From positions 1 through 33,535 of the forward strand of contig NZ_JAENYR010000014.1 of NCBI RefSeq assembly GCF_016841685.1: DNA of 33,535 nt, written 5' to 3'. The notes beneath the pieces were generated by a model. The model was given only the letters and a program-made list of their open reading frames with translations. It had not been told where the DNA came from and did no database searches. Position 1 is the first letter of the stretch. Each line of letters opens with the position of its first letter. Shown piece by piece: positions 2,120 through 33,535 of this stretch. Both the position numbers and the translations under genes were made by a program. This DNA is from Thiohalomonas denitrificans. Lineage in GTDB: Bacteria; Pseudomonadota; Gammaproteobacteria; Thiohalomonadales; Thiohalomonadaceae.

Positions 2120-2770
2120 ATGATAAAGGTCCTGCTTGTCGACGATCATGAACTGGTCCGCACCGGTATCCGCCGGCTGCTGGAAGATATAGAGGACATT
2201 GAAGTCTGTAGTGAAGCCTCCAGTGGTGAAGAGGCGCTGAACAGGGTCGCTGAATGCCATCCGGATGTGGTGCTGATGGACCTCAGCATGCCTGGGATCG
2301 GTGGACTGGAAACCACCCGGAAACTCTCACTGAATAGCCCGGATGTGGCCGTAATCATTGTTACCGTGCATACCGACGCCCCTTTCCCTAGCCGCCTGAT
2401 GCAAGCCGGGGCGATGGGCTATCTCTCCAAGGGGGGGAGTCTCGACGAAATGCTGCAGGCCATTCGCGAGGTGAAGAACGGGGGGCGCTATATCAGTCCC
2501 AATATCGCCCAAAACCTTGCACTCTCGCTGATGGATGAAAAGGAGTCGCCGTTCTCGGTGCTCTCGGAAAGGGAACTGCAGGTCATGTTCATGCTGATCC
2601 AGGGTCAAAAGGTCGCGAGCATTTCCGAAAAACTGAATCTCAGTCCCAAGACCATCAGTACCTACCGCCATCGCGTATTCGAAAAGCTTAAGGTCCAGAA
2701 CGATGCGGGGCTCACTCGCCTGGCTATGTGTCACGGGCTCCTGGATGGCTATTTATCTTCTAATCAGTAA
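2120..2770 (+). CDS. gacA: Response regulator GacA/UvrY (LuxR-type)
   Basis: A 216-residue two-component response regulator. The N-terminal receiver domain has acidic residues D8-D9, phospho-acceptor D54 in LMDLSMPG, and a conserved Lys in GYLSKG. The C-terminal LuxR/FixJ helix-turn-helix is seen as LSERELQV...SPKTISTYRHRVFEKL. The gacA-uvrC-pgsA order is the classic gammaproteobacterial arrangement and identifies it as GacA/UvrY, which in relatives is phosphorylated by the hybrid kinase GacS/BarA and turns on Csr/Rsm small RNAs. The start at ATG 2120 begins exactly at the receiver domain; the in-frame extension upstream runs through the hairpin and is unlikely. No partner kinase is in the window, but a lone HPt protein is (13616-13966). 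Confidence 0.93.
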   Translation: MIKVLLVDDHELVRTGIRRLLEDIEDIEVCSEASSGEEALNRVAECHPDVVLMDLSMPGIGGLETTRKLSLNSPDVAVIIVTVHTDAPFPSRLMQAGAMGYLSKGGSLDEMLQAIREVKNGGRYISPNIAQNLALSLMDEKESPFSVLSERELQVMFMLIQGQKVASISEKLNLSPKTISTYRHRVFEKLKVQNDAGLTRLAMCHGLLDGYLSSNQ

Positions 2771-2961
2771 GTTACGCGTGTTTTTTCAACAAAAAGTGAA
2801 GTCTGGGTTTTCTCCGTTTTCAGGGCAAATTGGTAGATAATCAGCACCATACAGGCGTCTCTTCATCTCATCTGTGAAGTGTTTGCGCCCTCCCTTCGCA
2901 TTCCCAGGGAACCGCCGACCGGTATCGGCTTCCAACCCCCGAATGAGTACCTGAAAATCCA

Positions 2962-4806
2962 ATGAACCCCGATAACCAGGAAACCTTCGATATCCAGGGT
3001 TTTCTCCAGACCTTGACCACCCGGCCGGGTGTCTACCGTATGCTCGACGGGGAGGGCAGGATCATCTACGTCGGTAAGGCACGAAGCCTTAAACGGCGTG
3101 TCTCCAGCTATTTCCAGCGCCGGGACGACTCCCCAAAAACCCGCAGCCTGGTCGCACAGATTCGCAGCATCGAAGTCACGGTAACCCAGACCGAGGGCGA
3201 GGCGCTGCTGCTCGAAAACAACCTGATAAAAAAGCACCGACCACGCTACAACGTGCTGCTGCGGGACGATAAGAGTTACCCGTACATCTTCCTCTCCGAG
3301 GGACCGTTTCCGCGCCTCGGGTTTCACCGTGGCCGCCGCCGGACCAAAGGGCGCTACTTCGGGCCGTTTCCCAACGCTTCGGCGGTTCGCGAGAGCCTGA
3401 GCTTGCTGCAGAAAATCTTTCCGGTGCGCCAATGCGAGGACAGCTACTACGCCAACCGGCACCGGCCCTGCCTGCAATACCAGATAAAACGCTGCACCGG
3501 CCCCTGTGTCGATCGGGTGGATGAGGCCAGCTACCAGGAGGACGTGCGCCACTCGGTCATGTTTCTGGAGGGCAAGAGCAGTCAGGTCATCGACGAACTG
3601 GTACAGCGCATGGAGCAAGCATCGGAAAAGCTGGAGTTCGAGCAAGCCGCCCGCTACCGGGACCAAATCGTCAACCTGCGACGCGTCCAGGAAAAACAGT
3701 ACGTCAGTGGAGAACGGGGCGACCTGGACGTCCTCGCGGTGCACCAGCAGGCCGGCATCAGTTGCGTCGAGGTCTTTTTCATTCGTGGCGGCCGGAATCT
3801 GGGCAATCGTATCTACTACCCCCGGCACACGACCCATGCCCAGCCGGACGAGGTAATCGGTGCCTTCATTGCCCAATACTACCTGGCTAACCGCACCGAC
3901 CGTCCGGTGCCTCCCGAGCTGCTGCTGAACCTCGAACCGGAAGACCGCGAACTGCTGGAGCAGGTCCTGGGGGAGCGGGCCGGGCGCAAGGTTGCAGTCA
4001 CAGCCAAGGTGCGCGGCGATCGGGCACGCTGGGTGGAGATGGCAGTACGGAATGCGGAGCACGCCCTTAAAGCCCACCTGGCTACCCGAAGTAGTCAGCA
4101 AAAGCGTTTCGAAGCCCTGCAGGAGGAGCTCGGGCTGAGCGAACTGCCGCGCCGTATCGAATGCTTCGACATTAGCCATACGCAGGGTGAAGCCACCGTC
4201 GCCTCCTGCGTGGTGTTCGATAACAACGGACCGCTCAAATCGGATTACCGCCGCTTCAATATCGAAAACATCACCCCCGGCGATGATTACGCCGCGATGC
4301 ATCAGGCGTTGACTCGACGTTTTCGACGCCTCAAGGAGGAAGACGGCAAGCTGCCCGACCTACTGCTCATCGACGGCGGCAAAGGGCAAATCACCCAGGC
4401 CGAAGCGGTGCTTGGTGATCTCCAGGTCGCGGGCGTGACCCTGGTCGGCGTGGCCAAGGGAGCGAGCCGTCGACCCGGACTGGAGCAGTTGATTATTTCC
4501 GGGCACAATGGCGCTGTCTCGCTGCCGCCCGATTCGCCGGCACTGCACCTGATTCAGCATGTCCGCGATGAAGCGCATCGTTTCGCCATCGCGGGCCATC
4601 GGCAACGGCGTGCCAAAAGCCGCCGCAGCTCACCGCTGGAGGCCATCGACGGGCTTGGGCCAAAGCGGCGACAGCAGCTCTTGCGCCAGTTCGGCGGGCT
4701 TCAGGAGGTAGTGCGGGCAGGGGTCGAAGACCTGAGTTCCGTGCACGGCATCAGCCGACAGTTGGCACAACGTATTTATGACACGCTGCATCCGGATGAG
4801 AAATAG
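2962..4806 (+). CDS. uvrC: UvrABC nucleotide excision repair subunit UvrC
   Basis: A 614-residue protein, normal length for UvrC. UvrC makes the 3' and 5' incisions around bulky DNA lesions after UvrA2B loads UvrB. The GIY-YIG nuclease domain is at the N-terminus (GVY at 23-25, YVG at 36-38), and a UVR domain that binds UvrB is near 208-243 (FEQAARYRDQI). The RNase H-like nuclease domain carries ECFDISHTQGE and LLIDGGKGQ, and the C-terminus has helix-hairpin-helix repeats (IDGLGPKRRQQLL, VHGISRQLAQRI). The ATG at 2962 gives the standard N-terminus. It lies 191 bp after gacA and its stop directly abuts pgsA (TAG then ATG), so uvrC and pgsA are cotranscribed. Confidence 0.97.
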   Translation: MNPDNQETFDIQGFLQTLTTRPGVYRMLDGEGRIIYVGKARSLKRRVSSYFQRRDDSPKTRSLVAQIRSIEVTVTQTEGEALLLENNLIKKHRPRYNVLLRDDKSYPYIFLSEGPFPRLGFHRGRRRTKGRYFGPFPNASAVRESLSLLQKIFPVRQCEDSYYANRHRPCLQYQIKRCTGPCVDRVDEASYQEDVRHSVMFLEGKSSQVIDELVQRMEQASEKLEFEQAARYRDQIVNLRRVQEKQYVSGERGDLDVLAVHQQAGISCVEVFFIRGGRNLGNRIYYPRHTTHAQPDEVIGAFIAQYYLANRTDRPVPPELLLNLEPEDRELLEQVLGERAGRKVAVTAKVRGDRARWVEMAVRNAEHALKAHLATRSSQQKRFEALQEELGLSELPRRIECFDISHTQGEATVASCVVFDNNGPLKSDYRRFNIENITPGDDYAAMHQALTRRFRRLKEEDGKLPDLLLIDGGKGQITQAEAVLGDLQVAGVTLVGVAKGASRRPGLEQLIISGHNGAVSLPPDSPALHLIQHVRDEAHRFAIAGHRQRRAKSRRSSPLEAIDGLGPKRRQQLLRQFGGLQEVVRAGVEDLSSVHGISRQLAQRIYDTLHPDEK

Positions 4807-5391
4807 ATGAGATTCACCATACCCACAATCCTGACGCTCTTGCGCATCGTACTGATCCCGGTATTTGTGGTTTTCTATTACCTTCCGGTTGAATGGGCGC
4901 ACTTGGCGACCACCGTCATTTTTGCCTCTGCCGCGGTGACCGATTGGCTCGACGGCTATCTCGCCCGCCGGCTGCAGGCGCATTCACCATTCGGTGCATT
5001 TCTGGACCCGGTGGCGGACAAGTTGATGGTGACCACTGCGCTGGTGTTCATCGTTGACAGCAATCCCACCGCATTCAACGGATTCTGGATGGCACTGCCG
5101 GCGGCCATTATTATTGGTCGCGAGATCACCATCTCGGCGCTTCGTGAGTGGATGGCCGAACTGGGGGCCACCGCAGCCGTGGCGGTAAGCATGCTCGGCA
5201 AGATAAAAACCACCGCGCAGATGGCGGCCCTGTTGCTGCTCATCTACCAAGAGCCCCTTGCGGGTTTGCCGACCGCTCTGGTAGGATTCGCGCTTCTTTA
5301 CGTCGCCGCCGTACTGACGCTCTGGTCGATGGTGAGGTACATGAGGGCGGCCTGGCCGGTGCTTCTGGTGCGGGAAAGTTCGGAGCTTTAG
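4807..5391 (+). CDS. pgsA: CDP-diacylglycerol--glycerol-3-phosphate 3-phosphatidyltransferase
   Basis: A 194-residue integral membrane enzyme that makes phosphatidylglycerophosphate from CDP-diacylglycerol and glycerol-3-phosphate, the committed step to phosphatidylglycerol and cardiolipin. The CDP-alcohol phosphatidyltransferase signature is complete: D46, D49-G50, A53-R54, G63, D67 and D71 with canonical spacing. Several hydrophobic helices surround it (for example residues 8-25 and the C-terminal third). The ATG follows the uvrC stop codon with no gap, indicating translational coupling. Length and context are typical of PgsA. The stop at 5391 is followed by a hairpin that overlaps the tRNA promoter. 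Confidence 0.96.
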   Translation: MRFTIPTILTLLRIVLIPVFVVFYYLPVEWAHLATTVIFASAAVTDWLDGYLARRLQAHSPFGAFLDPVADKLMVTTALVFIVDSNPTAFNGFWMALPAAIIIGREITISALREWMAELGATAAVAVSMLGKIKTTAQMAALLLLIYQEPLAGLPTALVGFALLYVAAVLTLWSMVRYMRAAWPVLLVRESSEL

Positions 5392-25993: not shown

Positions 25994-26755
25994 CTAAAAC
26001 CACATCCGGATGCCGGCGACCATCGAGGTATGTTCGACGTCTTCTCCTTCGGCTTCGATGAAATCGGCCGTATCCCCCAGGCTTTTACGCCATGATACGC
26101 CGATATACGGCGCGAATTCCCTTGCGAATTCGTAGCGCAAACGCAGGCCGGCCTGCACGAAAGTGAAGCCTTTGCCGACACTGAATTCTTCCACCTCATC
26201 CACCGCATAGGCGGTGGCGAAGCGTGGCTGCAGGATCAGGCGCTGTGTAAACAGCAGTTCATATTCGGCTTCAAGACTGGCCGATACATCGCCCTCTTCG
26301 CTGACCCGCAGAGAGGGGTCCATTTCGAAGTAGTAGGGCGCCAACCCCTGGAGCCCGACGGTTGCATAGGTGCGATCGTGATCCGGCCCCGGACCGTAGA
26401 TCCTCTGTTGTCCGAGGCCGGCCTGGAGATCCCAGAAAGGGGAGATCATGCGGCTGTAGAGGAGTTCAAGCTCCGCTTCGCCGCCATCACCGCCGGATCG
26501 GACATCTTCACCTTCCGTTTTTACCCACAGGCGGTTGTAGTCACCGCCGTACCAGCCCTGGACATCCCAGTTGATGGCGTCTTCATCATCGCCCCAGGCG
26601 TATTCGAGGCGATCGAAAAGGACCGAACCAACCGCGATATCGTCATGAACCGGGGAGGGCCATCCCTCTTTATCGCGCTCCTGATCGGCAGCGGCACTCA
26701 AAAACGGAAACAGCAGCAGAGCCCCTGCGAGCCTTGTCATCCAATTATTATTCAC
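25994..26755 (-). CDS. copB: Copper resistance outer-membrane protein CopB
   Basis: A 253-residue exported beta-barrel. A signal peptide (about residues 1-22, ending LSAAADQ) is followed by the CopB pattern VGSVLFDRLEYAWGDDEDAI, WDVQGWYGGDYNRLWVK, EAELELLYSRMISPFWDLQ, APYIGVSWRKSLGDTADF and the terminal aromatic IRMWF. CopB sits in the outer membrane and helps sequester or export copper. The long Met/His-rich N-terminal tail of many CopB proteins is missing. GTG 26755 is chosen because GGGAGG lies 6 bases upstream; ATG 26740 is an alternative. It starts 14 bp after the copA stop, typical of a copAB operon. Confidence 0.93.
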   Translation of the reverse strand: MNNNWMTRLAGALLLFPFLSAAADQERDKEGWPSPVHDDIAVGSVLFDRLEYAWGDDEDAINWDVQGWYGGDYNRLWVKTEGEDVRSGGDGGEAELELLYSRMISPFWDLQAGLGQQRIYGPGPDHDRTYATVGLQGLAPYYFEMDPSLRVSEEGDVSASLEAEYELLFTQRLILQPRFATAYAVDEVEEFSVGKGFTFVQAGLRLRYEFAREFAPYIGVSWRKSLGDTADFIEAEGEDVEHTSMVAGIRMWF

Positions 26756-26768
26756 ACTATACCTCCCG

Positions 26769-28709
26769 TTAAGCGACCGAGACGACACGGAACATGCCGG
26801 CTTTCATGTGGTAGAGCAGGTGGCAGTGGAAAGCCCAGTCACCCGGCGCATCCGCGGTGATTTCGGCGGAGACCTTCTCCCCCGGCTTCACGCTGATGGT
26901 GTGCTTGCGCGGCTTTAGTGGCCCCGCCCCGGTATCCAGCTCCATCCACATTCCATGCAGGTGGATGGGGTGATCCATCATGGTGTCGTTCACCAGGGTG
27001 AGCCGCAGCCGTTCTCCATGGTGAAACCTGACCGGCCCATCCACTTCCGAGAATTTCTTGCCGTCGAACGACCACATGTAACGTTCCATATTGCCGGTCA
27101 GATGCAGTTCGATCTCCCGGCCGGGTTTTCGCTGGTCCGGCCAGGGGTGGAGGCTTCGCAGGTCGGAGTAGACCAACACACGGTGTGAATCGCTGCTCTC
27201 CAGTCCGACACCGGGCTCGTCGAGACGGCTGCGGGGGTTCATGGCCACCATGGCGGCTCCGGGTCCGTGATTGTTCGGTCCGTGCTCCACGGATTGAGAG
27301 CTATCCCCGACCATGCCGTCCATTGTGGCGTGTTGGTTCGCCTGCCCCTCTTTTGTGGCGAGGCCATCCATGTTCATCGATTTGCCTTGGTTTTCCATGG
27401 AAGTCATGTTCCTGGAAGGATTCATTTCATCCATCGAGTTCCCCATGTCCATCTTCATGTCCATCGACTGACCCGACTCTCCCATGGAGCCCATACCCCC
27501 GGATGAATCCATGTTACCCATCGACCCGGAGCCCTCCATGTCCATATCCATATCCATATCCATGTCCATATCCATGTCCATATCCATTCCCATACTGTCC
27601 ATGCCACGCATCGGGGCCGGGCGCCGTTCGGGGATCGCTGCGGAGTCGCCATCCCGGGTCGACAGGGTGCCGCGGGCAAAGCCGCTACGATCCATCGACT
27701 CGGCGAACAGGGTGTAGGCGCGATCGTTGTCCGGCTCAACAATCACATCGTAGGTTTCGGCGATACCAATCCGGAATTCGTCGACCGGCACGGGCTGGAT
27801 GTTCTGTCCATCGGCCTGAACGACGGTCATTTTGAGACCGGGGATGCGGACATCGAAATAGCTCATGGCCGAACCGTTGATGAAACGCAGCCGAACCTTT
27901 TCCCCCGGGTGGAAGAGGGCGGTCCAGTTCTCCTCCGGAGCCATACCATTGAGGAGAAACGTATAGGTGGAACCGGTGACGTCGGCGATATCGGTCGGGC
28001 TCATGCGCATGTTGCCCCACATGCGCCGATCCCGCATCGTTGGCCCCCAACCCTTCTCCTCGACATCACGGAAGAAGTCGGCCACGGTCCGTTTTTGGTA
28101 GTTGTAATAGCCTTCCGCCTTTTTGAGGTTCTTCAGAACCTCCATGGGATCCTCGAAGGTCCAGTCGGAGAGCATCACCACATAGTCGCGGTCGAACTCG
28201 AAAGGCTCCGGTTCTGCCGGATCAATGACCAACGGGCCGTAATGGCCCAACTGTTCCTGCAGACCGGAATGACTGTGATACCAGTAGGTGCCGCTCTGGA
28301 TCAGCGGATAACGATAGGTGAACGTTTCACCGGCAGGGATACCCGCGAAGCTGACGCCGGGCACACCGTCCATTTGAAACGGAAGAAGGATCCCGTGCCA
28401 ATGGATTGATGTGGCCTCCTCAAGCCGGTTGGTGACGCGTAGCGCCGCTGTCGTCCCCTCCTTTAGTCGAATCAGAGGCCCGGGCGTAGTGCCGTTAATA
28501 GTTATCGGCCGTGCCTGCTCTCCTGCGATGTGGCCTGCGGTGCGTTCGATGGTGAGGTCGACCGTACCGTCGTGACCCAGCCCGCTCGTCGGACTCAACC
28601 CTTTTTTTTGTGAGGCGTAGGTCGGAATCCAACCGTTGAGTCCTGCCAGGACGCCCACGCTTACCGCGCTTTTCAGAAAGCGTCGGCGAGAAAACCCTTG
28701 TTTCTGCAT
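26769..28709 (-). CDS. copA: Copper-resistance multicopper oxidase CopA with Met-Asp repeat insert
   Basis: A 646-residue periplasmic multicopper oxidase. A twin-arginine signal (SRRRFLKSAVSVGVLAG) at residues 7-23 means it is exported folded. The copper-binding motifs are complete: HWHGILLP, WYHSHSG, HPIHLHGMW and HCHLLYHMKAGM. Between the second and third cupredoxin domains is a long methionine-rich insert that includes eight Met-Asp pairs at residues 375-391 (DNA 27537-27587), followed by many M-G-S/N-M segments. Such Met clusters bind Cu(I) in the family, but an alternating MD tract is unusual. ATG 28709 follows GGGAG on the minus strand. copB follows after 14 bp. Confidence 0.95.
   Translation of the reverse strand: MQKQGFSRRRFLKSAVSVGVLAGLNGWIPTYASQKKGLSPTSGLGHDGTVDLTIERTAGHIAGEQARPITINGTTPGPLIRLKEGTTAALRVTNRLEEATSIHWHGILLPFQMDGVPGVSFAGIPAGETFTYRYPLIQSGTYWYHSHSGLQEQLGHYGPLVIDPAEPEPFEFDRDYVVMLSDWTFEDPMEVLKNLKKAEGYYNYQKRTVADFFRDVEEKGWGPTMRDRRMWGNMRMSPTDIADVTGSTYTFLLNGMAPEENWTALFHPGEKVRLRFINGSAMSYFDVRIPGLKMTVVQADGQNIQPVPVDEFRIGIAETYDVIVEPDNDRAYTLFAESMDRSGFARGTLSTRDGDSAAIPERRPAPMRGMDSMGMDMDMDMDMDMDMDMDMEGSGSMGNMDSSGGMGSMGESGQSMDMKMDMGNSMDEMNPSRNMTSMENQGKSMNMDGLATKEGQANQHATMDGMVGDSSQSVEHGPNNHGPGAAMVAMNPRSRLDEPGVGLESSDSHRVLVYSDLRSLHPWPDQRKPGREIELHLTGNMERYMWSFDGKKFSEVDGPVRFHHGERLRLTLVNDTMMDHPIHLHGMWMELDTGAGPLKPRKHTISVKPGEKVSAEITADAPGDWAFHCHLLYHMKAGMFRVVSVA
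27537..27587 (-). repeat. Hexamer microsatellite encoding (Met-Asp)8
   Basis: Plus-strand CATGTC/CATATC hexamers repeat eight times, with mixed Asp codons (GAC and GAT), plus a final CAT. Changes of unit number would keep the frame of copA. Confidence 0.9.
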
Positions 28710-28835
28710 GCTCTTTCTCCCGTTGATCCAGGGATTCGGGTGCACAACCGCATTCGCCCTCTATTAGCTTACGTGCGAAGCGGCCGAGTTGGTTTGGAAA
28801 AAAACAGGGGAGTTGCCGCAGTGCGGCAAGGGCTT

Positions 28836-29219
28836 TCAGAGCCTCAGACGGCGGGTGACCAGATAGACGGGATGGGTGGCTGCAGAAGAAGCTGGCGGAA
28901 AGGAGGTTCTTGTCGGCTCGACCGGAAACGGCACAAGAGAGGATCGCAACACCGCTTCCGGAAGCGGTGTCGGCCCGGAAGGCAGGACCTTGTCACTGTT
29001 TCCCGCAACAGGAACCGAAAACAGATGGCAATCGTCGCCTGCCATGCATGGATGAGACGTACCCGTCTCATTATTCATGCTGCTGTCCATGGCCATGGCA
29101 CACGGACCCATAAGAATCGAGATCACCAACAGCGCCAGTAGAACCCCGGTTTCCCGCAGGGGCCTGATCGAAGTCCGGCCGGCACCGGTCAGTTTTGCAG
29201 AATGGGTCAAGATGGCCAA
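28836..29219 (-). CDS. Small exported protein upstream of copA (CopL-like?)
   Basis: A 127-residue protein with a hydrophobic export segment at about 22-42 (GVLLALLVISILMGPCAMAM) and a short Met/Cys/His region right after it (MDSSMNNETG, then SHPCMAGDDCHLF). The rest is Pro/Ser-rich and of low complexity. It precedes copA by 126 bp on the same strand, the place where small copper-related proteins such as CopL occur in other bacteria. The Cys-x5-Cys-His and Met residues could bind copper. The start is TTG 29219 with a poor ribosome binding site, so the N-terminus is uncertain; no family can be named firmly. Confidence 0.6.
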   Translation of the reverse strand: MAILTHSAKLTGAGRTSIRPLRETGVLLALLVISILMGPCAMAMDSSMNNETGTSHPCMAGDDCHLFSVPVAGNSDKVLPSGPTPLPEAVLRSSLVPFPVEPTRTSFPPASSAATHPVYLVTRRLRL

Positions 29220-29412: not shown

Positions 29413-29447
29413 TTCAATACCAATGACGACTTACAAGGAGGTAGGTG

Positions 29448-30773
29448 ATGTACCTATTCAGGTTAGTACGCGAACCATTGGCCAAGGCTTGGCCAATCAT
29501 CCTGTTTTCTCTGCTTCTCAGTATCTCCCTCCTGCCGGCCGTGACCGAGGCAGCGGTGGAGATGCGCGTCAATGCTCAGGCCGATCCGGTCGAAGTGCAT
29601 GCAACCGTAACGGACGCAGATGGCCATTTTGTAACCGGCTTGAATCAAGCCGATTTTGAAATCTTCGAAAACGAAACGCCGATGTCGATAACGAGCTTCC
29701 GGCAGCCGGCCATCACGAGTGAACAGGATGACGTGGCGCTCTCGGTGGTATTTGTCATCGACAACAGCGGTAGCCTGGATGATCTCAACAAGCAGGTCGA
29801 GGATTCGGTGGTCAGTTTCGTAAGGAACATGCAACTCGGCGATTATGTCGGGCTGGTGAAGTTTCGCGCCGCGGATTTTTTCATCAGAGACTTCACGATG
29901 GTCGATCCCTCGGGTACCACAGCCATCGAGGAGGCGATCCATCAGCCACTGAACCCGGATGAATCAACGTCTCAAATCTTTGATGCCATGATGGAAGCCC
30001 TCATGATGGCAGAGAACGGGCCGGTGGGTGTCGACGGCCCAAAAGCCATCGTGCTGCTGTCGGACGGATGGGACCATTATTCCGAAACGACACTTGAGGA
30101 ACTCCTCGGGGCGATCGATTCAAGCGGCATACCCGTCTTTACCATTGGCTTCGGCTCCAACGTCGAGATTGATACGATGACGCAAATCGCCCAAGTGGGT
30201 GGTACCGATTACGTCGCGGCCGATGATGGACAGGCGTTGGAGGCCGTACAGCTGGAAATGGCCAAACTACTCCAGAATGGCTACTTGCTGACCTATCAAT
30301 CCGCTCTCGCTCCTGATGAATGCGGCGAGGTCAAGTTGTTGCTGAGCGTCACGGGCCAGCCATCCCAGGAAACGACCTTCGACCGCTGCGGAAGCAACAA
30401 TTTCGCCCCCCATATCAACACGGTAAAGAAGAGGACCTTCGACGTTGGAGCACCGGTATCACTGGCCATAGAGGCATCCGATCCCGAAGGTGATCCGCTG
30501 GAGTTCAGTGCGGAGGGACTTCCTCCCGGTCTTTCCATCGATACCTCGACGGGGGTTATCTCCGGTACACCGACTACCGTCGGAAACTACGATGTCCAGG
30601 TCGCGGTGACTGACGGCCAGGCGACCAGTCGTATCGCTTTCACCACGGACATTGTGGCGGCAGGGACGACCAGTGATAGCGGCGGTGGTGGCTCGTTTGG
30701 CCCATCCGGCCTGGGTCTGCTGTTGCTGCTGTGGGGTCTATCCATCGTCGCAACCAGAAAGCACGCCGTGTAG
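29448..30773 (+). CDS. Exported VWA-domain protein with Ig-like domain and GlyGly-CTERM tail
   Basis: A 441-residue secreted or surface protein. It has a signal peptide at about 12-36, a short beta-domain (PVEVHATVTDADGHFV...FEIFEN), a von Willebrand A domain with an intact MIDAS start D105-N-S-G-S109, and a cadherin-like putative Ig domain (DPEGDPLEFSAEGLPPGLSI...GVISGTPTTVGNY). The C-terminus has SGGGGSFGPSGLG, a hydrophobic helix and a basic end (ATRKHAV), the layout of GlyGly-CTERM proteins processed by rhombosortase. ATG 29448 follows AAGGAGG with a 6-base spacer. It sits between copper genes in divergent orientation. VWA domains bind metal and partner proteins; a copper link is unproven. 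Confidence 0.88.
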   Translation: MYLFRLVREPLAKAWPIILFSLLLSISLLPAVTEAAVEMRVNAQADPVEVHATVTDADGHFVTGLNQADFEIFENETPMSITSFRQPAITSEQDDVALSVVFVIDNSGSLDDLNKQVEDSVVSFVRNMQLGDYVGLVKFRAADFFIRDFTMVDPSGTTAIEEAIHQPLNPDESTSQIFDAMMEALMMAENGPVGVDGPKAIVLLSDGWDHYSETTLEELLGAIDSSGIPVFTIGFGSNVEIDTMTQIAQVGGTDYVAADDGQALEAVQLEMAKLLQNGYLLTYQSALAPDECGEVKLLLSVTGQPSQETTFDRCGSNNFAPHINTVKKRTFDVGAPVSLAIEASDPEGDPLEFSAEGLPPGLSIDTSTGVISGTPTTVGNYDVQVAVTDGQATSRIAFTTDIVAAGTTSDSGGGGSFGPSGLGLLLLLWGLSIVATRKHAV

Positions 30774-30996: not shown

Positions 30997-33051
30997 ATGC
31001 AGCACGCCGGCCATTCCGGCCCAGCGGGGAAGCAGGACAAACATACGGCTCACCAGCAGCAACAGGGCGGACACCAGGCGCACCATGCGGTCATGATTGC
31101 CGATTATCGGCGGCGCTTCTGGCTCTCTCTGGCGCTGACCGTGCCGATTCTGGCGCTATCGCCCATGATTCGGTCGTTTCTCGGCCTTGAAGACCTGCTC
31201 AGCTTCCCGGGAGACGCACTGGTTCTGTTCCTGCTCGCCACCGGCGTTTACTTCTATGGCGGCTGGCCATTTTTGCACGGGCTCTACGACGACCTAAGCC
31301 GGCGCGAGCCGGGAATGATGACTTTGATCGGGCTGGCCATCACGGTCGCCTATGGCTACTCCAGTGCCGTTGTCTTCGGTCTGGAGGGTGAGGTCTTCTT
31401 CTGGGAACTGGCTACGCTCATCGACGTCATGCTGCTTGGCCACTGGGTTGAGATGCGTTCGGTGATGGGGGCCTCGGGTGCCCTGGAGGCTCTGGTCAGA
31501 CTGTTGCCTACCGAAGCTCACCGCCTCAGGGAAGATGGCAGCGTAGAAGAGGTTTCAGCATCGGATCTGGCCGTTGGAGACAAGATCCTGGTCAAGCCGG
31601 GGGAGAAGGTCCCCACCGATGGTGTGATCGTGAAAGGCGAGAGCAGCTTTGACGAATCGATGCTCACCGGCGAATCCGTACCGGTTTACAAGAATGAAGG
31701 AACACAGGTAATCGGCGGCTCGGTGAACGGCGAGAACAGTGTCACCGTCGAGATCCGGAAGACCGGCCGGGACACCTATCTCTCGCAGGTCATCGATATG
31801 GTTCAGCAGGCCCAGAGCTCGCGCTCGCGCAGCCAGAACCTGGCCGACCGTGCCGGTGGATGGTTGACCTATATTGCTATCAGCGTGGGTGTGCTGACGC
31901 TGGTGACCTGGCTCACGTTCGGTGCCGATTTCGAGTTTTCTCTGGAGCGCATGGTGACCGTGATGGTGATCACCTGTCCTCACGCGCTTGGTCTAGCCGT
32001 TCCCCTGGTGGTGGCGATGAGTACCAGCATGGGCGCGTCGAACGGGCTTCTGATCCGCAATCGGGCCGCCTTCGAACAGTCGCGGGACCTCGGCGCTGTG
32101 GTATTCGACAAGACCGGCACCCTCACCGAAGGCCATTTCGGTGTGCGTGAAACCATCGCCTTTGGAGAGTGGGACGAAACCGAGGTCCTGCGCATCGCCG
32201 CTGCCCTGGAAAGTCAGTCTGAACATCCTATCGCCCGCGGCGTCACCGATGCCGCCACGAAAAAGGACCTCAAGCTGGCGAGTGTCAGCCATTTCCATAA
32301 CCTGACCGGGCGGGGCGCTGAAGCCGAGATCGAGGGGCGCCGGGTTCAGGTGATCAGCCCGGGCTACGCTCGAGAGGAGGGATACCGTGTCGACGAGGAA
32401 GCCGTCGGCCGCCTGTCGGAGGGTGGTAACACGGTCATCCTTGTCATCGTGGCGGACGAAGTCGCCGGGGCCATCGCCCTGGCAGACGTCGTCCGGGACT
32501 CCTCCAAAGCGGCCGTCGCCCGGCTGAAGGCCATGGGAATACAGTGCATCATGCTGACCGGCGATACGGAAGCCGTGGCACGCAGCGTTGCTGCCGAGCT
32601 GGGACTCGATGACTACTTTGCGGGCGTATTGCCGGATCAGAAAGCCGCCAGGATTCGCGAGGTAAAGCAGCGGGGACTGCGGGTCGCGATGGTGGGCGAT
32701 GGCGTCAACGATGCCCCCGCCCTGGTGGAATCGGACCTCGGCATCGCCATCGGCGCCGGGACCGATGTGGCCATCGAATCGGCCGACGTCGTTCTGGTGA
32801 AGAATGATCCCGAAAAGGTGGCGGCTATCCTTGCGCTTTCACGTGCCACCTACCGGAAAATGCTGCAGAACCTGGGTTGGGCGACCGGTTATAACGTGGT
32901 GGCCATTCCACTGGCGGCCGGGGTCGCAGCCGGTGCAGGAATCATTCTTTCACCAGCGATTGGTGCGGCCTTGATGTCCATCTCCACCGTCATTGTCGCA
33001 ATCAATGCCCGATTACTGAAGCGGGCGGATATTCTCCGGCCCACCGAATGA
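30997..33051 (+). CDS. Copper-translocating P-type ATPase (CPH type, CopB-like)
   Basis: A 684-residue P1B-type ATPase that pumps copper out of the cytoplasm. The N-terminus is a short His/Gln-rich metal tail (MQHAGHSGPAGKQDKHTAHQ...HQAHH) instead of CxxC domains. The membrane metal site is C327-P-H, typical of P1B-3 (CopB) pumps for Cu(II)/Cu(I)/Ag. The actuator TGES lies near residue 222, the phosphorylated aspartate is D371 in DKTGTLTE, the nucleotide domain has SEHPIARGV, and the hinge GDGVNDAP begins at 567. ATG 30997 matches the family N-terminus and follows AAAGG; upstream in-frame sequence is intergenic. The enzyme is complete. Confidence 0.95.
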   Translation: MQHAGHSGPAGKQDKHTAHQQQQGGHQAHHAVMIADYRRRFWLSLALTVPILALSPMIRSFLGLEDLLSFPGDALVLFLLATGVYFYGGWPFLHGLYDDLSRREPGMMTLIGLAITVAYGYSSAVVFGLEGEVFFWELATLIDVMLLGHWVEMRSVMGASGALEALVRLLPTEAHRLREDGSVEEVSASDLAVGDKILVKPGEKVPTDGVIVKGESSFDESMLTGESVPVYKNEGTQVIGGSVNGENSVTVEIRKTGRDTYLSQVIDMVQQAQSSRSRSQNLADRAGGWLTYIAISVGVLTLVTWLTFGADFEFSLERMVTVMVITCPHALGLAVPLVVAMSTSMGASNGLLIRNRAAFEQSRDLGAVVFDKTGTLTEGHFGVRETIAFGEWDETEVLRIAAALESQSEHPIARGVTDAATKKDLKLASVSHFHNLTGRGAEAEIEGRRVQVISPGYAREEGYRVDEEAVGRLSEGGNTVILVIVADEVAGAIALADVVRDSSKAAVARLKAMGIQCIMLTGDTEAVARSVAAELGLDDYFAGVLPDQKAARIREVKQRGLRVAMVGDGVNDAPALVESDLGIAIGAGTDVAIESADVVLVKNDPEKVAAILALSRATYRKMLQNLGWATGYNVVAIPLAAGVAAGAGIILSPAIGAALMSISTVIVAINARLLKRADILRPTE

Positions 33052-33149
33052 AGGCTTCCCGGCCAACCCGGGTCCCGGGGTCGGGGTATCAGTGCCACGA
33101 AGGGAGGATGATCCCACTGTGGCGAAACACAGCAACGGAGGATGCACAT

Positions 33150-33535
33150 ATGAGATTCAAATGGATGGCGATGGCAACGGTACTGAGTGCCATGACCGCA
33201 ACGGGTAGTGTTTGGGCGCAAGGTGCGACTTCGCCCTGTCCCTACGGAAGCGGGTGCCCTTACGGTTATCAAGGCCAAGGGCCGATGGGCCAAGGCATGC
33301 AGACGAGTCCGGGCATGGGCCCCGGCATGGGAATGGGACCCGGCATGGGGATGGGATCCGGCATGGGGATGGGGCCCGGCATGGGCATGGGCCCCGGCAT
33401 GGGCATGGGCCCCGGCATGGGAATGGGTCCCGGCATGGGAATGGGCCCCGGCATGGGAATGGGTCCCGGCATGGGCATGGGCCCCGGCATGGGAATGGGT
33501 CCCGGCATGGGAATGGGCCCCGGCATGGGAATGGG
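33150..33535 (+). CDS. Exported methionine-rich (GPGMGM)n repeat protein, partial
   Basis: The gene is cut by the window end after 128 codons. A signal peptide (MRFKWMAMATVLSAMTATGSVWAQG) is followed by a Cys-containing linker (CPYGSGCPYGY) and Gly/Gln/Met-rich sequence. From 33318 to 33533 there are twelve hexapeptides G-P-G-M-G-M (one has S for P), encoded by 18-bp units with varying third bases. ATG 33150 follows GGAGG with an 8-base spacer. It is the next gene after the copper ATPase (98 bp gap), so a periplasmic Cu(I)-binding role through the methionines is a reasonable guess. Its C-terminus and total repeat count are unknown. Confidence 0.88.
   Translation, partial: MRFKWMAMATVLSAMTATGSVWAQGATSPCPYGSGCPYGYQGQGPMGQGMQTSPGMGPGMGMGPGMGMGSGMGMGPGMGMGPGMGMGPGMGMGPGMGMGPGMGMGPGMGMGPGMGMGPGMGMGPGMGM
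33318..33533 (+). repeat. Twelve tandem 18-bp units encoding GPGMGM
   Basis: The units are GGN-CCC-GGC-ATG-GGN-ATG, almost identical, with the first base of the second codon changed in unit 3 (TCC). The array continues to the window edge and probably beyond. Third-base differences show that selection or age has kept the protein while the DNA drifted. Confidence 0.95.

Follow-up and report, generated by a model that had tools for sequence, protein, structure and literature searches.

The 33,535-nucleotide window (the whole stretch of DNA analysed here, contig positions 1-33535 of a Thiohalomonas denitrificans genome of 3.79 Mb in 160 contigs) ends inside a gene whose product we read, with a probability of roughly 0.6, as an exported, disordered methionine/glycine/proline polymer that would buffer Cu(I) outside the cytoplasmic membrane. 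This reading, drawn from sequence comparison, is suggested by the Met density of the protein, its Met-x-Met (MxM) pairs, the gene order, the conservation within the genus and the recurrence of Met-rich neighbours beside other P1B-3-type ATPases.

The 5' part of the gene occupies 33150-33535 on the plus strand, and the gene runs on beyond the window, through an assembly gap. Its ATG at 33150 is preceded, 8 nt upstream, by a Shine-Dalgarno sequence found by eye (GGAGG, 33137-33141, plus strand). The reading frame starts with MRFKWMAMATVLSAMTATGSVWAQGATSPCPYGSGCPYGYQGQGPMGQGMQTSPGM, continues into the repeat array and stays open up to the window end. A signal-like N-terminus, MRFKWMAMATVLSAMTATGSVWA (33150-33218), with cleavage after VWA, can be recognised by eye, as the signal peptide of the initial annotation had implied; signal peptides elsewhere in this work were likewise assigned by inspection or with simple rules. 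The mature N-terminus carries a Cys pair, CPYGSGC (C30 and C36, 33237-33254), that is kept in both species known to have the gene order described below, and the array of 12 hexapeptide units follows at 33318-33533 (216 nt). Eleven of the units are identical GPGMGM and one is GSGMGM, i.e. the earlier count of at least twelve GPGMGM repeats holds if the Ser variant is included, and the regular MxM repeat in a Gly/Pro backbone is plain to see. The known mature protein has 222 residues, among them 49 Met (22%), 92 Gly (41%) and 33 Pro (15%), with 2 Cys, no His and 17 MxM pairs within the known sequence; the product, predicted to be exported, is probably floppy.

Through the array (33297-33535), none of the six frames contains a stop codon, therefore the openness of the plus frame is in itself no proof of coding. 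On the minus strand, the frames translate into His-Ala, Pro-Met or Pro-Cys repeats, by which gene callers could be misled. Support for the plus frame comes from the ribosome-binding site, the signal-like N-terminus and the pattern of differences between our genome and a genome of the same genus: within the first 52 codons, there are 2, 1 and 7 differences at codon positions 1, 2 and 3, respectively, falling into 6 synonymous and 4 nonsynonymous codons.

Directly after the last base of the window there is a gap of 10 Ns (contig 33536-33545, L003 2537-2546). Beyond it we find PGMGM, two more GPGMGM, two GPGMM and seven GPGYG[GQR]QM units, before a short tail leads to the stop codon. Taken literally, the 10 Ns shift the repeat frame, which would be preserved if the real gap measured 18k-1 bases; we assume that the length of 10 is arbitrary and read the array across the gap as one protein, as the same kind of protein appears to resume behind it. 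The proposal to read on beyond the window was thus rewarded with the type of protein, its tail and its stop, but the full length is blocked by the assembly gap, and all unit counts given here refer to the known sequence, since the array is interrupted by a gap in both our genome and the same-genus genome.

The gene lies in a copper island. It starts 98 bp after an ATPase gene (30997-33051, plus strand), the neighbour that had already been taken for a copper pump, which has CPH at residue 327 and no CPC, GYNVVAIP, MSIST and 7 His among its first 33 residues. These features correspond to the P1B-3 signature, i.e. CPH in TM6, GYN(X)4P in TM7, MSXST in TM8 and a His-rich, metal-binding N-terminus (PMC5552934), so that the ATPase is of P1B-3 type and copper transport is predicted for it. 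Our scan of the interval between the ATPase and the repeat gene detected neither a terminator-like nor a promoter-like site. A gene for a 73-residue SHOCT membrane protein follows 74 bp 3' of the repeat gene (C-terminal PF09851, E 9.8e-11, 41.5 bits versus a cut-off of 27), and 3' of it there is a hairpin of 9 pairs with a T run. The scanned stretch contains a second, 5-pair terminator-like site inside the SHOCT gene; two such sites versus 1.1 in shuffled sequences is a weak excess. A SHOCT membrane protein is silver-induced in a haloarchaeon, as reported in PMC10694973. Upstream of the ATPase we find a protein with a VWA and a putative Ig domain (29445-30773, plus strand), whose membership in the operon is uncertain.

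On the minus strand, the island contains copA, a multicopper oxidase with a Met-Asp tract (26769-28745, TIGR01480, E 4.8e-252), and the outer-membrane copper resistance gene copB (25994-26788, PF05275, E 1.1e-83), which bears out the earlier description of a copper island with the Met-Asp tract of CopA. This tract is longer in the window than in the same-genus genome, i.e. its copy number varies too. A short ORF (28836-29219, minus strand) is found ahead of copA in the position of copL/cutF. Its C-terminal end, PVYLVTRRLRL, is similar to the ends of other short copper-locus ORFs (PVYLLTQRLRL in L041, PLYLLTQRLRP in L047 and PLYLITRRLRL in the same-genus locus L017), and BLASTP against the L041 ORF paired 11 residues and no more. 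CutF-type proteins are described as controlling a downstream copper oxidase through the nascent chain (PMC9973294) and have a proline motif, but the end of the short ORF lacks that motif. Downstream of the copper genes, genes that look by eye like multihaem cytochrome, NHL-repeat and PQQ-like genes are present (L003 6059-13111 and L018 268-8375).

The same-genus genome (G019) keeps the gene order and the N-terminus, its ATPase is 96% identical, and the signal-like N-terminus differs at 2 residues. Its array has a 135-N gap of its own, with 3 GPGMGM units before it and 14 GPGMM (longest run 11) and 10 GPGYGxQM units after it. Across the 19 full units of the two species, the nucleotide sequence varies only at the third base of codons 1 and 5 (both Gly) and through one Pro-to-Ser change. 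The double-unit repeat pattern was found in 2 of the 20 genomes that represent the order, all from one family, and both belong to this genus. A search with the N-terminus in 369 genomes of the class returned, besides the protein itself, five weak matches, none longer than 46 residues (39-45% identity, E 0.001-0.007), and we rejected homology with them as they cover mostly the signal region.

The second half of the protein, with its GPGYGGQM-type units, raises the question of a structural role. The repeat protein may resemble sulfur globule proteins, and it might be a matrix protein, for instance of a sulfur-globule envelope, in which Gly/Tyr/Pro-rich repeats assemble outside the membrane. From one species to the other, the share of Tyr is as constant as that of Met (10 of 222 known mature residues versus 13 of 283), and two dsrA genes over the family cut-off (C108:4960-6174 and C160:45572-46774) make a sulfur-metabolising life style likely for our organism. 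However, in both species the gene is placed between a copper ATPase and a SHOCT gene with copA and copB nearby, and elsewhere this slot is used by Met-rich proteins, so that we regard a matrix role as very unlikely. Nothing on point about the likeness to sulfur globule proteins was found in the literature among the matches listed.

Two other genera of the family and 18 of 368 other genomes of the class have relatives of the P1B-3 pump (52-70% identity, E up to 1e-200). They give a set of 20 loci in 18 genera besides our own, each taken with flanks of up to 5 kb, some of which stop at contig ends; orthology was inferred from similarity. All 20 pumps have CPH and MSxST. By eye, a short Met-rich ORF lies within 5 kb of the pump in 11 of the 20 loci and 9 of the 18 genera (L138-L144, L148, L149, L151 and L154, where L141, L143 and L144 represent one genus). 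The ORF of L148 has about 9% Met and is near 4 kb from the pump, and that of L154 has its start cut off, so its export signal is not visible. The other nine loci have no Met-rich neighbour by eye, including the closest relative, G009 (70%, L137), and two or more of these nine are shortened by contig ends. A SHOCT gene is near the pump in 7 of the 20 loci (tblastn) and copA together with copB in 4 of the 20. The order is ATPase, Met-rich gene, SHOCT in L140 and copA, copB, ATPase, Met-rich gene, SHOCT in L151, while in L154, 14 GPGYGM units stand ahead of a sub-cut-off Metal_resist match, followed by SHOCT and then the ATPase.

Two controls were compared with this set: the surroundings of 20 more distantly related P1B ATPases of our own family (CPC in 19 of the 20; in the L174 pump the motif was not found by the script), and 20 arbitrary stretches, i.e. 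two fixed positions in each of ten one-contig genomes. Our first filter, which required a signal peptide and kept antisense ORFs, gave 8/20, 8/20 and 2/20 for the P1B-3 loci, the distant P1B loci and the arbitrary stretches, respectively, and thus did not separate the two pump groups. The control matches look antisense, and an overlap rule was added after seeing this result; the resulting filter (at least 9% Met, at most 350 aa, and no longer, Met-poorer ORF covering most of the same stretch) gave 8/20 versus 0/20 versus 0/20, where the control pumps come from our own family and the P1B-3 set mostly from others, i.e. the groups differ in taxonomy too. It misses the by-eye positives L143, L148 and L149, and also the window's own locus (L003), because the gap breaks its ORF. 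Inspection by eye of the Met-rich ORFs listed at 8.5% Met for the 40 control loci left one genuine-looking gene, encoding a 69-residue membrane protein in L170; the remaining ones read as antisense frames.

The SHOCT gene gives a further view of the neighbourhood. Twelve of the 29 loci of SHOCT relatives (our own not counted; 73 genomes had a match) carry an ORF of at least 80 aa with at least 8% Met, 17 ORFs altogether, several of them plainly antisense, and the comparison rate is 0.22 per 3.2 kb in the loci of the tract scan described below with the GPGMGM ORFs left out. Four of 1113 matched plasmid records were inspected around their ATPases: three list no Met-rich repeat gene, and their downstream genes are metabolic or unrelated, in gene tables that are incomplete; the fourth record is unannotated there. 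Altogether, Met-rich short proteins recur beside P1B-3 pumps in about half of the loci examined, often with a folded domain. The repeat gene had been called the most system-like novelty of the window, and a Met-rich protein together with a copper pump is indeed present, but it fits a recurring slot better than a stand-alone novelty.

Ten of the 11 by-eye slot-mates (L139 was left out) were scanned for domains. Six match LTXXQ or Metal_resist with E up to 0.01, of which L138, L141, L148 and L151 are over the curated cut-off and L143 and L154 below it; four match nothing. Spy/CpxP/ZraP proteins with LTXXQ and Metal_resist domains (PF07813, PF13801) are thus similar to the repeat protein in being short and Met-rich, in having, in several cases, a Met/Gly/Pro tract, and in their location near P1B-3 pumps, but the known sequence of the repeat protein has no match to PF07813 or PF13801 with E up to 1. 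None of the Pfam and NCBIfam models fits it above cut-off, and BLASTP against the L154 protein gave nothing meaningful (E 8.2), so that any homology with the slot-mates is conjectural. Our genome also encodes a Spy-like Metal_resist protein with a Met/Gly/Pro tract (L198 1261-1866, 42 bits for PF13801, over the cut-off), whose contig also carries a CPC-type P1B ATPase at a distance of about 10 kb, and this protein is a possible source of the repeat.

The presence of such domains in some slot-mates and in the L198 protein, together with the ease with which tandem arrays expand, is also compatible with a relic, in which a Spy/ZraP-like chaperone would have lost its domain and the tract would drift as a functionless tandem repeat. 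This we consider very improbable, since the two species keep the signal-like N-terminus, the Cys pair and a similar tail, and the 19 units show only synonymous changes and the one Ser, even though a recent duplication could explain the uniformity of the units too. With respect to its origin, the repeat protein could either derive from the slot-mate type by domain loss or have been built anew.

Is the GPGMGM tract a copper marker by itself? DNA coding for GPGMGMGPGM was sought across 84,980 species genomes, and 68 stretches were found in 65 genomes. The host proteins are of many kinds, including some that we take to be members of the CotD-like or EF-hand families. A P1B ATPase (E up to 1e-80) lies within 5 kb of the tract in at least 4 of the 50 genomes in which the distance was measured (L041, L047, L050 and L065), a lower bound because many contigs are short. 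Two further tracts, in L070 and the second one in the genome of L065, are about 19 kb from a P1B ATPase, and L081, from one of the 15 of 65 genomes without a distance measurement, has an ATPase within its 8-kb stretch. The window ATPase itself, compared with all 68 stretches, gave 5 matches, with L031 at 28% only. The tracts with most units, L041 (10) and L081 (9), are both near a P1B ATPase, and both proteins are over the cut-off for LTXXQ. Short GPGMGM tracts are thus ordinary, while a link to copper is seen for the two longest of this small sample. We reject the idea that the repeat alone is specific for copper, as most genomes with the short version carry the tract elsewhere. The suggestion to look for similar tracts near copper genes therefore yielded little for the tract alone but succeeded for Met-rich short proteins beside P1B-3 pumps. 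One tract protein deserves mention in its own right: in Desulforamulus aeronauticus, a Cys-rich protein with a GPGMGM tail (L065 1855-2436) adjoins a P1B ATPase (2486-4915, minus strand). It has no Pfam match over the cut-off, and our guess is that it might store copper through its Cys residues, with the Met tail as an addition. The literature on the literal repeat motif yielded only a cone-snail paper among the matches listed.

It is instructive to compare the repeat protein with known metal-binding proteins. SilE/PcoE-type metal sponges have His together with Met in repeated motifs, but the repeat protein has no His in its 222 known mature residues. CopM of Synechocystis is an exported Met-rich protein of a copper operon that binds Cu(I) (PMC4335983), but it contains DUF305 domains and 8 His, whereas the repeat protein shows no DUF305 match with E up to 1. 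Met-rich domains were proposed to act as a "Cu sponge", in which many weak sites coordinate copper with several Met in a statistical and dynamic manner (PMC11840665). Here the likeness is that in the Met-rich domains of CueO-type multicopper oxidases, too, many flexible Met are expected to bind Cu(I) collectively; however, such a domain is part of an enzyme while the repeat protein is a free-standing polymer. The N-terminal region of PcoB, described as disordered, Met/His-rich, needed for function and stabilising PcoA (PMC12509749), is similar in Met content and presumably in disorder and copper operon context, but it is attached to a beta-barrel, and the repeat protein has neither a barrel nor His. 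Alignments with the PDB chains 5vj4 and 7ung match the Gly/Pro periodicity only, and a relation to them was rejected.

The PcoB region also provides the analogy for a further possibility, namely that the repeat protein docks onto the pump, CopA or CopB and passes copper along instead of keeping it in store. PcoB's disordered region supports both PcoB and PcoA (PMC12509749), and the presumed operon position of the repeat gene would suit such a delivery strap, but the long, uniform array and a known sequence without a recognisable docking part make it highly improbable.

As a Cu(I) buffer, the repeat protein would work as follows. The P1B-3 ATPase, by family resemblance, would export copper into the periplasm, where the repeat protein would catch Cu(I) weakly and exchangeably on MxM pairs spaced by Gly/Pro; by the chemistry of Met-rich domains, the many weak sites would act jointly. 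CopA might then receive the copper and oxidise it, or CopB might take it over for efflux. The protein would thus fill the slot of Met-rich short proteins, several of them of Spy/LTXXQ type, with a tract that has no folded domain. Several points stand against this. P1B-3 pumps are described as Cu2+ exporters, with one Cu+-transporting exception (PMC5552934), while Met ligands suit Cu(I) better; 9 of the 20 P1B-3 loci lack the neighbour, the repeat is present in 2 of 20 family genomes, and the tract alone is linked weakly to copper, in at least 4 of 50 genomes measured.

A dense Met array could also serve without holding any copper, i.e. as a sacrificial antioxidant that absorbs the reactive oxygen or chlorine species which copper generates and is recycled by methionine sulfoxide reductases. 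The Met-dense, signal-like and copper-associated character of the protein would fit, and oxidation and repair of periplasmic Met under stress are described in E. coli (PMC9302797, PMC12503329). We find this quite unlikely, because an oxidant sink needs no regular MxM spacing and the gene sits among copper genes.

A broader and bolder version of the Cu(I) buffer would be that the P1B-3 pump, the Met-rich partner and the SHOCT protein form an uncharacterised copper module with the tract as its working part. In this genus, the partner would be reduced to the tract alone, a nearly uniform copper-responsive polymer whose copy number would set the buffering capacity; its chains might condense or become cross-linked once MxM pairs are joined by Cu(I). 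This idea is speculative and, in our view, unlikely. We point to the recurring trio of P1B-3 pump, Met-rich short protein and SHOCT protein, which no title or abstract start describes among the literature matches listed, a partial coverage. The repeat protein itself is of interest because its sequence is nearly uniform: it is a natural case for asking if a disordered Gly/Pro chain with Met-x-Met can, without any fold, suffice to protect a cell from copper.
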